Shown piece after piece: positions 57,586-61,735 of a stretch of 64,000 nt of DNA (within the stretch, counting starts at the first letter, position 1; each line of letters begins with the position of its first letter). This DNA comes from Parvibaculaceae bacterium Mf 1.05b.01 (GTDB lineage Bacteria; Pseudomonadota; Alphaproteobacteria; Parvibaculales; Parvibaculaceae). A model generated the notes under the pieces. That model was not told the origin of the DNA and made no database searches. It was given only the letters and a program-made list of their open reading frames with translations. The stretch lies in NCBI GenBank assembly GCA_000509225.1, contig BAOK01000002.1, positions 562,496 to 626,495 of the forward strand. The letters are read 5' to 3'. A program made the translations under genes and the position numbers.

Positions 57586-58137
57586 ATGCAGGATTTATGG
57601 GTATTTGGATATGGGTCGTTGATGTGGCGCCCCGGGTTTCCGTTTGTCGAGCGATATGCCGCCCGTCTACACGGCTACCACCGCTCTTTCTGTGTGTTCA
57701 GCCATGTTCATCGCGGTACGAAGGAACGTCCCGGGTTGGTGTTTGGTCTAGATCGCGGCGGTTCCTGTCGCGGTTTTGCTTACCAGGTTGCGCCAGAACA
57801 TGCAGACGCCACGCGGCTTTACCTTCAAGAACGCGAGCAGGTGACCAGTGTCTACCTTGATGTCACCCGGTCCCTGACTTTGTTGGATGGACCGGTGCCC
57901 AAGGTTGAAGCACTTTGCTTTATTGTTGACCGAGACCATGAGCAATATGCCCATAAGCTTGATTTTGATCGGCAGGTGGAGCTGATTGCGCACGGGGAGG
58001 GGCAGTCAGGTAAGAACCCTGAATATCTTCAAAGTACGGTCAAACATCTTCAGGAAATGCGGATCAGCGACCAGGGGTTGGAGACGCTTTGGCGCGCTGT
58101 AGAGCAGCGTCTAGATCAATCGTCTGTGCGCCCGTAA
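57586..58137 (+). CDS. ChaC-like gamma-glutamylcyclotransferase
   Basis: A 183-residue enzyme expected to cyclise the gamma-glutamyl group of glutathione, giving 5-oxoproline and Cys-Gly. The substrate loop is VFGYGSLMWRPGFPF; RSFCVFSHVHRGTKERPGLVFGL and the catalytic glutamate in QEREQVTSVY are family marks. Its 3' end overlaps the convergent ycaQ gene by 74 bp. Together with several GST genes and gloB this window is rich in glutathione-related functions. Confidence 0.92.
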   Translation: MQDLWVFGYGSLMWRPGFPFVERYAARLHGYHRSFCVFSHVHRGTKERPGLVFGLDRGGSCRGFAYQVAPEHADATRLYLQEREQVTSVYLDVTRSLTLLDGPVPKVEALCFIVDRDHEQYAHKLDFDRQVELIAHGEGQSGKNPEYLQSTVKHLQEMRISDQGLETLWRAVEQRLDQSSVRP

Positions 58138-59278
58138 ACTTCGTGAGGCGCCGCAGCGCCTTTCTAAGTCCTTCTTCGCGGGCGGCGCTCAGCTTGACAC
58201 CCTCTTCCAGCCAAAGGCCTTTCACTTCGAGACGGCCTTCTTTGCGGTGGACTTTGACATCGGTTCGTCCAGTGAATTTCGACCCTTCCAGGATTGGCAA
58301 AACGTAGTAGCCATATTGGCGTTTCTTTTCTGGAACAAATATCTCCACGCGATAGTCAAAGCCAAAAAGACGTTCAGCACGTTTTCTGTCGCGCACCACA
58401 GGGTCAAAGGGGCTTAGTAGACGAAGGCGCTTTGTCGGTGCATTGAGCGCGTCGAGTTCTTCTTCAATAGAGGCGAAGGCGACAGATTTTCGCCATGTTC
58501 CGTCTGTTCCTTCTACCTCAACTGGCATCAGGTCGTGCCCCATTTGGTTTTTGACCCAATCAGCAGCCTGCTTGCTGGAGACGCTTGCCCAATAGGCGGC
58601 GATCTCGCCATGGGTCGCTGTGCCCAAACGCTTTAGCGCCTCGCGACATTTCCAGTCGATGGTCTCCGTGAGGCTTGGTTTTTCTTCGCGGTGGCACCCG
58701 TCAATGCAGCGATCGGTCAGATCATAGACTTTCTGAAAGCCTTCGCGGCGAACAATGGCCAGCTCTCCAGCCCGCCAGAGATATTCCAGCGCAGTTTTTG
58801 AGGGGCCCCATCCCCACCAGGCGCCCTGGCCTTTATCCTCAAAGTCTCGCGACATGAGGGGGCCTTCTTTCTTGATGCGGGCTTTCACGGCTCTGAGGAC
58901 TTTGGCGCCATCAGGTCCCATTCGTTGCTGCCAGTTTGGATGGCCTAAGCGTTCTTTGGCGCGGGAAAATCGATGGCGCCAATAGGGATAAAACTCTGTT
59001 GGGATGAGGCAGGCGTCATGGGTCCAGTGTTCGAACAAAGTGCCGCGCTCTTCGTGAAGTTCTTTCAGATGCTCGTGGCGATATCCGTCTGCACGTGAGT
59101 GCAGAATCATGTGATGAGCGCGCTCGACAGTATTGATGCTGTCGAGCTGCACATATCCAAGCTGGTTGATAAGGTCCTGCAGCTTGTCTGCATTGAAAGG
59201 GCCGGACGGTTTCTGGCCGAAGCCTTGCTTCTCCAGAAGCAAGGATCTGGCATCGGCGTTTGATATTTTGAGTGTCAC
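58064..59278 (-). CDS. YcaQ/AlkX-type DNA glycosylase (winged-helix family)
   Basis: A 404-residue HTH_42 family protein, related to E. coli YcaQ (AlkX), which unhooks interstrand cross-links. The catalytic Q-phi-D motif is Gln44-Leu-Asp46 in YVQLDSINTVERAHHMI. Tandem winged-helix blocks follow (GAWWGWGPSKTALEYLWRAGEL, LLSPFDPVVRDRKRAERLFGFDYR, YYVLPILEG). The start is GTG 59278, 7 bp after the nrdJ stop, so both are probably one operon. This would place it under the LexA box upstream of nrdJ. Confidence 0.88.
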   Translation of the reverse strand: MTLKISNADARSLLLEKQGFGQKPSGPFNADKLQDLINQLGYVQLDSINTVERAHHMILHSRADGYRHEHLKELHEERGTLFEHWTHDACLIPTEFYPYWRHRFSRAKERLGHPNWQQRMGPDGAKVLRAVKARIKKEGPLMSRDFEDKGQGAWWGWGPSKTALEYLWRAGELAIVRREGFQKVYDLTDRCIDGCHREEKPSLTETIDWKCREALKRLGTATHGEIAAYWASVSSKQAADWVKNQMGHDLMPVEVEGTDGTWRKSVAFASIEEELDALNAPTKRLRLLSPFDPVVRDRKRAERLFGFDYRVEIFVPEKKRQYGYYVLPILEGSKFTGRTDVKVHRKEGRLEVKGLWLEEGVKLSAAREEGLRKALRRLTKFTGAQTIDLDAALQRAKASPTPGR

Positions 59279-59285
59279 GTTTTCG

Positions 59286-61613
59286 TCAGCCGCACCGTGA
59301 ATATCCGCACTCGGTGCAGTTATCGCAGCCTTCCTGGCGGATCAATGAGCGATCCCCACAGCGGGGGCAGCTTGCCCGTCTCGGGTCGTCCGTGTCGCCA
59401 GCCACTTTTTGAAGAGCCTCCGAAATCGGACGGCCCTCATTCCTGGTGATGAACCCGGTGTCGATCATATGTTGTTCGATCACTTCGCCGATGGCGGCCA
59501 GCAGACTGGGCACATATCGTCCATCAACCCAGGCGCCGCCGCGCGGGTCAAATACGGCTTTCAGCTCCTCAACGACAAAGGTCACATCGCCGCCGCGGCG
59601 GAAGACGGCCGAGATCATCCGCGTCAAGGCCACGGTCCAGGCATAGTGCTCCATGTTTTTTGAGTTGATGAAGATCTCAAAAGGACGCCTGCGATTGTCC
59701 TGCATAATGTCGTTTAGTGTGATGTACATGGCGTGATCGCTTTCGGGCCATTGCAGCTTGTAGGTGAAGCCAGGCAGGACTGTGTCACGCTCCAGGGGCG
59801 ACGACATGTAGACGACGCCCTCGTGCTCGATAGGGTCGAGAGAAGGCTTCGGTGCTTCCAGTGGAAGCGCGGATTGGCTTTGTGCTTCCTTTTGTTCGAC
59901 AGGTTTTGTTGTGGCAAGGACGGAGCCGCGCACATCACTTGGTCGATAGGTGGTGCAGCCTTTTAGGCCCATTTGATAGGCATCACGATAGACTGACTTG
60001 AAATCTTCAAAACTCAGGTCTTCCGGGCAGTTGATGGTTTTTGAGATTGAGCTGTCGATGTATTTTTGAACGATGGCCTGAACCCTGACATGATCTCGTG
60101 GGCTCAAACCTTCTGTCGTCACGAATGTATCTGGCAGGACCGCGTCGTCGCCGAACTTTTCCCTATATTGAGCAACGGCATAGTCGACAACTTTTTCTTC
60201 TTTTCGGGAACCGTCGGGCATCAGGACCTTGCGGGTATAATCCAGAGCAAAGATGGGTTCGATGCCGCTCGACACGTTCCCAGCAAATAGCGAGATCGTT
60301 CCTGTCGGCGCGATGGATGTGAGGAGCGCGTTTCGAATTCCCTTGTCTTCAATGGCAGTCCGCACATCGGCATCGAGACGTCTGACAGTTTCGCCGTCGA
60401 GGAACGCCTTTGTGTCGAACAGGGGGAACGCGCCTTTTTCTGCGGCAAGGTCTGTTGAAGCCAGATAGGCGGCACGCTGGAGCGCCTGTATCCAGGTTTC
60501 AATCAGATTAAGGCTTTCGTCACTGCCATAGCGCACGCCACACATGACAAGCGCATCAGCAAGGCCGGTGACGCCGAGGCCAATGCGCCGCTTGGCTTTG
60601 GCTTCATGTTCCTGCTGGGGCAGTGGAAAACGGGAGATGTCGATGACATTGTCCATGGCGCGCACAGCAGTGCGTACCAATCTGTCCAGCTCTGCCAAAT
60701 TGATTTTGGCGTCAGGGTCGAACGGCTTTTCCACCAACCGTGCAAGATTGATTGATCCTAAAAGACAGGCGCCATAGGGCGGGAGAGGTTGCTCGCCACA
60801 GGGATTGGTGGCGTGAATTGTTTCGCAATAGGCGAGATTGTTTTGCTTGTTGATGCGATCAATGAAAATGACGCCGGGCTCCGCATAGGCGTAGGTGGCA
60901 TCCATCATTTTGTCCCACAGTGCCCGGGCTTTGATTGTTTTATAGGTTTTGCCATCGAAGACGAGCGGCCAGTCGCGATCTGCTTCGACCGCCTCCATAA
61001 AAGGATCAGTGACCAGTACCGACAGGTTGAACATGGTCAGCCGTCCGGCTTCCTGTTTTGCTTCGATGAAGTCCTCAATGTCTGGATGGGTGCACACCAT
61101 GGTGGCCATCATGGCACCGCGTCTTGATCCGGCAGACATGATGGTCTGGCACATGGCGTTCCAGACATCCATAAAGCTCAGCGGGCCCGATGCATCTGCC
61201 CCAACGCCTTTTACTTCGGCACCTTTGGGTCGCAGGGTGGAGAAGTCATACCCGATGCCACCGCCCTGCTGCATGGTGAGGGCGGCTTCCTTCAAGGCCT
61301 CGAAGATCCCGCCCATGTCATCAGGTACATCGCCCATGACGAAACAATTGAAGAGGGTGACTGAGCGTTCGGTGCCAGCCCCGGCAACGATGCGCCCGGC
61401 GGGCAAAAACTGAAATCCCTCTAAGGCCTGTTTGAATTCTGTTTCCCACCTTGCCTGGTCGGCAGACGCTTCTGCCTCAGCCAGGGCCTTTGCAATGCGG
61501 CTCCATGTTGCCGCAACGGTTTCATCAGCAGGCAGTGTGTCTGACCCGCTGAAGCGATATTTCATCTGCCAGATCTGGTCGGCGATAGGGATCAGGGGTT
61601 CGGACTGCGTCAT
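59286..61613 (-). CDS. nrdJ: Adenosylcobalamin-dependent ribonucleotide reductase (class II)
   Basis: A 775-residue B12-dependent reductase that makes deoxynucleotides without oxygen or a second subunit. FNCFVMGDVPDD and TNPCGEQPLPPYGACLLGSINL carry catalytic residues; GSRRGAMMATMVCTHPDI and APTGTISLFAGNVSSGIEP are also conserved. The C-terminus has a zinc-ribbon-like CPRCG...CTECGYSRCG that feeds reducing equivalents. No ATP-cone is visible at the N-terminus. Upstream lie a LexA box and an inverted repeat; ycaQ follows in the operon. Confidence 0.96.
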   Translation of the reverse strand: MTQSEPLIPIADQIWQMKYRFSGSDTLPADETVAATWSRIAKALAEAEASADQARWETEFKQALEGFQFLPAGRIVAGAGTERSVTLFNCFVMGDVPDDMGGIFEALKEAALTMQQGGGIGYDFSTLRPKGAEVKGVGADASGPLSFMDVWNAMCQTIMSAGSRRGAMMATMVCTHPDIEDFIEAKQEAGRLTMFNLSVLVTDPFMEAVEADRDWPLVFDGKTYKTIKARALWDKMMDATYAYAEPGVIFIDRINKQNNLAYCETIHATNPCGEQPLPPYGACLLGSINLARLVEKPFDPDAKINLAELDRLVRTAVRAMDNVIDISRFPLPQQEHEAKAKRRIGLGVTGLADALVMCGVRYGSDESLNLIETWIQALQRAAYLASTDLAAEKGAFPLFDTKAFLDGETVRRLDADVRTAIEDKGIRNALLTSIAPTGTISLFAGNVSSGIEPIFALDYTRKVLMPDGSRKEEKVVDYAVAQYREKFGDDAVLPDTFVTTEGLSPRDHVRVQAIVQKYIDSSISKTINCPEDLSFEDFKSVYRDAYQMGLKGCTTYRPSDVRGSVLATTKPVEQKEAQSQSALPLEAPKPSLDPIEHEGVVYMSSPLERDTVLPGFTYKLQWPESDHAMYITLNDIMQDNRRRPFEIFINSKNMEHYAWTVALTRMISAVFRRGGDVTFVVEELKAVFDPRGGAWVDGRYVPSLLAAIGEVIEQHMIDTGFITRNEGRPISEALQKVAGDTDDPRRASCPRCGDRSLIRQEGCDNCTECGYSRCG

Positions 61614-61690
61614 CTAATGATATCTCATTGCGGGCGTGTAGAATGAGGGGCCCTGATCTTGATCCGGATCGTCCGGCCCGTCAAACAAAT

Positions 61691-61705
61691 GTTCCATTTA
61701 TGTTC
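61691..61705 (-). promoter_or_regulatory. LexA (SOS) box upstream of nrdJ
   Basis: GTTCCATTTATGTTC (GAACATAAATGGAAC in the nrdJ direction) fits the alphaproteobacterial direct-repeat LexA site GTTC-N7-GTTC exactly. It lies 78-92 bases before the nrdJ ATG, between plsC and nrdJ. Confidence 0.65.
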
Positions 61706-61735
61706 TTTTGACAATGCTGAAGCCTCAAAAGAACA
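61701..61735. promoter_or_regulatory. 11-bp inverted repeat next to the LexA box
   Basis: TGTTCTTTTGA (61701-61711) and TCAAAAGAACA (61725-61735) are perfect inverted arms, 13 bases apart, and share a GTTC with the LexA box. It may be a second operator or a hairpin ending plsC transcripts. Confidence 0.5.

Follow-up and report, generated by a model that had tools for sequence, protein, structure and literature searches.

Our comparative data indicated that nrdJ, encoding a short B12-dependent class II ribonucleotide reductase (RNR), and ycaQ, encoding a YcaQ/AlkX-type glycosylase, are likely to form a two-gene SOS operon behind a LexA operator in Parvibaculaceae bacterium Mf 1.05b.01 (probability of about 0.85, with LexA binding, induction, co-transcription, and physiological role all predicted from sequence). 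The LexA-type switch before nrdJ is very probably real and appears to belong mostly to the B12 enzyme. The window, that is, the whole 64,000-nucleotide stretch of contig BAOK01000002.1 that was analyzed, contains the following features toward its right-hand end.

62534-61770, minus strand: plsC
156 bp: intergenic region between plsC and nrdJ
61702..61734, minus strand: inverted repeat GTTCTTTTGA-N13-TCAAAAGAAC, between plsC and nrdJ
61691..61705, minus strand: predicted LexA operator, GAAC-N7-GAAC, reading GTTCCATTTATGTTC on the plus strand and GAACATAAATGGAAC on the coding strand
61679..61684, minus strand: -35 element TTGACG, separated from the upstream box by 6 nt, with similar spacing in relatives
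61656..61661, minus strand: tentative -10 element CAAGAT, 17 nt past the -35 element
59286..61613, minus strand: nrdJ, short NrdZ-type class II RNR of 775 aa, ATG at 61613
58064..59278, minus strand: ycaQ/alkX-like gene (PF06224), 404 aa, GTG start
57586-58137, plus strand: ChaC-like gene, arranged tail to tail with ycaQ

The first-pass annotation had placed a perfect GTTC-N7-GTTC 78 bases upstream of a class II nrdJ, and this was confirmed, with the near edge of the box at 61691-61705 lying 78 bp from the nrdJ ATG and the nrdJ product scoring above the profile cut-off of TIGR02504 NrdJ_Z (588.6 bits versus 399.95). Cysteines with radical and redox roles were all retained (C90, C272 in NPCGE, and C283), as was the C-terminal Cys cluster. 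A YcaQ/AlkX-type gene 7 bp after nrdJ had also been claimed, and it was found there, with a GTG start at 59278. Its product, the single PF06224 protein of the host genome, scored 244 bits against the AlkZ-like/HTH_42 profile (cut-off, 25.9) and matched the solved structure 9zd6 (phmmer E-value, 7e-45), with the catalytic motif Q44-L45-D46 (QxD, not QxQ) aligned to the QID of that structure. The QxD motif distinguishes YcaQ/AlkX from AlkZ (PMC7367128, PMC13303869); by this mark the product is of the YcaQ/AlkX type, for which cross-link unhooking is the predicted activity. The 7-bp gap between the nrdJ stop codon and the ycaQ GTG was identical in four genomes of the genus (G000-G003), which, along with the shared strand, supports a single nrdJ-ycaQ transcript. 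Neither a B12 riboswitch nor any other known RNA was seen near nrdJ in the 52-64 kb part of the window. The inverted repeat shares GAAC with the LexA box, which its 3' arm overlaps, and both of its arms were altered together in G002; it could be a plsC terminator or a second regulatory element. At the position of the -10 element, other genera carry CTAGCT- or CTAGGA-like sequences. As a separate observation, short NrdJ frames of ~1150-1280 aa occurred in G020, G032, G077, G080, G156, G219, G307, G381, and other genomes, with the best match beginning at residue 267-270, just ahead of the radical-cysteine motif NPCGE, and these probably contain inteins at the active site.

A perfect match to the operator is by itself at chance level and not significant. 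Three such boxes occurred in the window versus 1.8 expected, and the whole genome contained 103, many of them inside coding sequence, versus 134 for a reversed control pattern. The perfect box, which was the argument of the first-pass annotation, would thus not carry the case by itself, and the nrdJ box is significant because of its place, spacer, and conservation. Perfect boxes with AT-rich spacers precede recA, lexA, imuA, imuB, uvrA/ssb, comM, zapE, mraZ, and a radical-SAM gene (uvrA, ssb, imuA, and zapE being named by sequence and position), and the box upstream of host lexA (C2:1276935) reads GAACCAAACTAGAAC. When a spacer matrix was built from six such boxes (recA, lexA, imuA, imuB, uvrA/ssb, and comM), with nrdJ excluded, the nrdJ box came sixth among the 100 perfect boxes listed, ahead of those of lexA, imuA, and recA, a ranking that is indicative because only six training sequences underlie it.

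Several other perfect boxes of the host deserve mention in their own right. The box GTTCCTTCTTTGTTC lies ~240 bp before mraZ, the first gene of a division and cell-wall cluster (L101:2059-2073; G000:C2:409558-409572), and possibly provides an SOS input into cell division. Another, ~23 bp ahead of the gene for a zapE/AFG1-like ATPase (L098:2007-2021; G000:C1:451106-451120), may be a further link between SOS and division. Additional SOS genes of the host are likely marked by perfect boxes of AT-rich sequence, which lie close to a DUF2867 gene (L107:1980), the radical-SAM gene (L108:2039), and a glyoxalase/VOC gene (L110:2040).

To compare relatives, we took in Rhodobiaceae FE80, Tepidicaulis marinus, and Parvibaculum as members of Parvibaculaceae. 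All 11 non-Parvibaculum family genomes with a complete nrdJ upstream region (G000-G003, G005-G009, G012, and G013) carried a perfect nrdJ box, in which the half-sites were fixed and the spacers varied freely (ATAAATG, ATACAAA, AAAAAAA, TTATCAA, ATTAAAA, and others). The 100% core identity of the family box alignment arises by construction, since its rows were picked for a perfect box, and the counts are the unbiased measure. In nearly all of these promoters, TTGAC comes 5-7 nt after the box, and a -10-like sequence (e.g., CTAGCT) follows ~17 nt after that. Most Parvibaculum nrdJ genes have GNAC-N7-GAAC (7/8 bases) or a weaker site at the corresponding place, with perfect boxes in P. indicum and G027. 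A canonical lexA-promoter box was found in 19/20 family genomes searched (the lexA of G018 having no box within reach of the start used), indicating that the operator recognized by LexA is unchanged in the family. The Parvibaculum nrdJ upstream regions (L053-L073) additionally contain DnaA-box-like TGTGGATAA/TGTGGAAAA repeats, which are absent from the genus of the window and suggest replication-linked nrdJ control in Parvibaculum.

Conservation extended across the class. We examined 300 bp upstream of short NrdJ in 60 alphaproteobacterial genomes from more than 50 families, picked without regard to the box; the expected counts come from shuffles of the same sequences and ignore shared ancestry, so that the excesses measure conservation rather than independent origins. 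Perfect boxes preceded short NrdJ in 19/60 genomes (0.42 expected), at least seven of the eight box bases were present in 50/60 (10.8 expected), and a box followed after 4-8 nt by a TTGNC-type (TTGAC-like) -35 element was found in 29/60 (0.03 expected); the remaining 10/60 had no box even with one mismatch allowed in these 300 bp. The commonest variant class-wide was AAAC-N7-GAAC, and in genomes with this nrdJ variant the canonical lexA box was present before 23/23 lexA genes whose start was found. Nearly every alphaproteobacterial lexA promoter examined (e.g., L253-L278) also had a second, conserved site matching at 7/8 bases, GTTT-N7-GTTC, ~25 bp past the canonical box, and one-mismatch GTTC-to-GTTT sites hence recur in lexA promoters too. 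As controls, 20 stretches of ~1.6 kb upstream of long NrdJ and NrdA contained no perfect box, and ~728 kb of other strands gave one unrelated match to the box/-35 layout. Each Parvibaculaceae genome examined encodes three RNRs, the other two in the host being a long NrdJ (1317-aa open frame) and a 704-aa NrdA-like frame, neither of which has a perfect box nearby among the perfect boxes listed. With short NrdJ often boxed across the class and the other two RNRs unboxed, short NrdJ is a predicted class-wide LexA target and would serve as a third RNR reserved for DNA damage; as one of three, it is probably dispensable for ordinary dNTP supply. The first-pass annotation had called for the gene pair and box to be sought in relatives, where both were encountered, the box at the frequencies given above and the adjacent pair in four families.

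Three other explanations were weighed. That the nrdJ box is a chance match would agree with the 103 genomic perfect boxes, which do not exceed the control pattern and often lie in coding sequence; although true of the box taken alone, this explanation was rejected by the 11/11 family genomes and the 19 exact class-wide boxes against 0.42 expected, and we give it almost no credence. It is also unlikely that the nrdJ promoter is mainly under another control (oxygen via FNR, NrdR, or DnaA) with the LexA box as a minor input. Sphingopyxis nrdZ, described as an O2-independent RNR, was induced up to 365-fold in anaerobic growth, a condition in which SOS genes rose 4-12 fold (PMC6472365), and the DnaA-box-like TGTGGATAA sites of Parvibaculum nrdJ promoters point the same way. 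However, the window's nrdJ promoter contained no FNR-like site with one mismatch or fewer, FNR control of this gene was rejected for want of a near-consensus site, and the conserved promoter elements are the box and the -35 layout. The anaerobic response of Sphingopyxis nonetheless makes a second signal likely in some lineages, and DNA damage is possibly neither the sole nor the main signal.

The most serious of the three, which we regard as doubtful yet less so than control by another regulator, is that SOS control concerns nrdJ only, as a source of reserve dNTPs, with ycaQ as a passenger or under its own promoter and no cross-link repair unit. It is favored by the box following short nrdJ through most of the class without ycaQ alongside. 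Among 386 class genomes, a close ycaQ occurred in 58, short nrdJ in 149, and both in 43 (22 expected, an excess that ignores relatedness), and the two genes were adjacent in only ~10 of these 43; in Parvibaculum they lie ~0.5-2 kb apart, where ycaQ has no perfect box of its own. Against this, adjacency with gaps of ~7 to 50 bp was found in four families, namely f1 (Parvibaculaceae), f5 (G043), f116 (G156, G253, G336, and G408), and f123 (G163), and exact boxes of its own precede ycaQ in several other lineages. Where ycaQ is away from nrdJ, 3/27 genomes have a perfect box within 60 bp of its start (0.19 expected), and a Hyphomicrobiales MAG (L128) has one 131 bp before ycaQ. Such boxes suggest selection for damage control of ycaQ itself, and this control thus seems to have evolved on more than one occasion. 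A VOC/glyoxalase-family gene was observed between nrdJ and ycaQ, in the same direction, in Tepidicaulis marinus and UBA4490, reaching up to the ycaQ start (L118/L119, 416 bp before ycaQ); its orthology to the host VOC gene that has an SOS box was considered and rejected, the similarity being only distant. The annotated idea of one damage-inducible nrdJ-ycaQ unit is accordingly supported, with qualifications: phylogenetic footprinting strongly supports the operator and the 7-bp gap in four genomes supports one transcript, but ycaQ is tied to the operator only in some families, and the functional link between dNTP supply and cross-link repair is a predicted one.

In the two-gene SOS operon that we favor, LexA would occupy 61691-61705, immediately before the -35 element, and repress a sigma-70 type promoter, and RecA filaments on damaged DNA would trigger LexA self-cleavage and joint transcription of nrdJ and ycaQ as a bicistronic message. 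Class II RNRs function with or without oxygen. NrdJ would act as an accessory, B12-dependent third RNR not tied to oxygen, supplying extra dNTPs for repair and translesion synthesis at stalled forks, while YcaQ, as an AlkX-type enzyme, may unhook interstrand cross-links or remove cationic N-alkyl purines. Because repair after unhooking needs dNTPs, the pairing of the two genes would make sense. In a wider scenario, toward which we lean with less assurance than for the operon itself, short B12-dependent NrdJ would be a core gene of the class-wide LexA regulon, providing an SOS dNTP supply independent of class I, and several lineages would have independently placed an AlkX-type glycosylase under the same switch, through an operon or a box of its own. 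These findings bear on where bacteria obtain the dNTPs used in repair and translesion synthesis when the SOS response is on. The conservation of a LexA operator before one specific RNR offers a testable reason why many alphaproteobacteria have two or three RNRs, namely an enzyme reserved for damage, and the YcaQ/AlkX family, whose E. coli member is reported to be constitutive, gains a regulatory context in the DNA-damage response.

The LexA regulon of Caulobacter, Rhodobacter, and Sinorhizobium uses the same GTTC-N7-GTTC operator beside a sigma-70 type promoter, whereas the targets predicted here are the gene for a short class II RNR and that for a YcaQ-type glycosylase. No report of either as an alphaproteobacterial LexA target appeared in the literature searched; published SOS gene lists lay outside this search, and an earlier listing of nrdJ is possible. 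The text of a paper on LexA in Streptomyces venezuelae names no RNR. In E. coli, dNTP supply through nrdAB goes up after DNA damage and, to our knowledge, no LexA box is used for this induction; the dNTP response to damage is alike, but here a dedicated class II enzyme with a predicted LexA box would provide it. The class II NrdJ/NrdZ proteins of Thermotoga maritima (1xje) and Sphingopyxis (nrdZ) share TIGR02504 membership, the catalytic cysteines, and the C-terminal Cys cluster with the NrdJ of the window, which differs from them as a predicted SOS-inducible third RNR. With E. coli YcaQ/AlkX (YQL subfamily of PF06224), the glycosylase shares family, length, QxD motif, and single copy. In E. 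coli, ycaQ shares a putative operon with msbA and lpxK, and its RNA did not rise after mechlorethamine or MMS treatment (PMC7367128), whereas the ycaQ of the window follows an RNR gene and has predicted LexA control. Since E. coli ycaQ is reported not to be damage-induced, the predicted SOS control represents a new variant in the regulation of YcaQ-family glycosylases.
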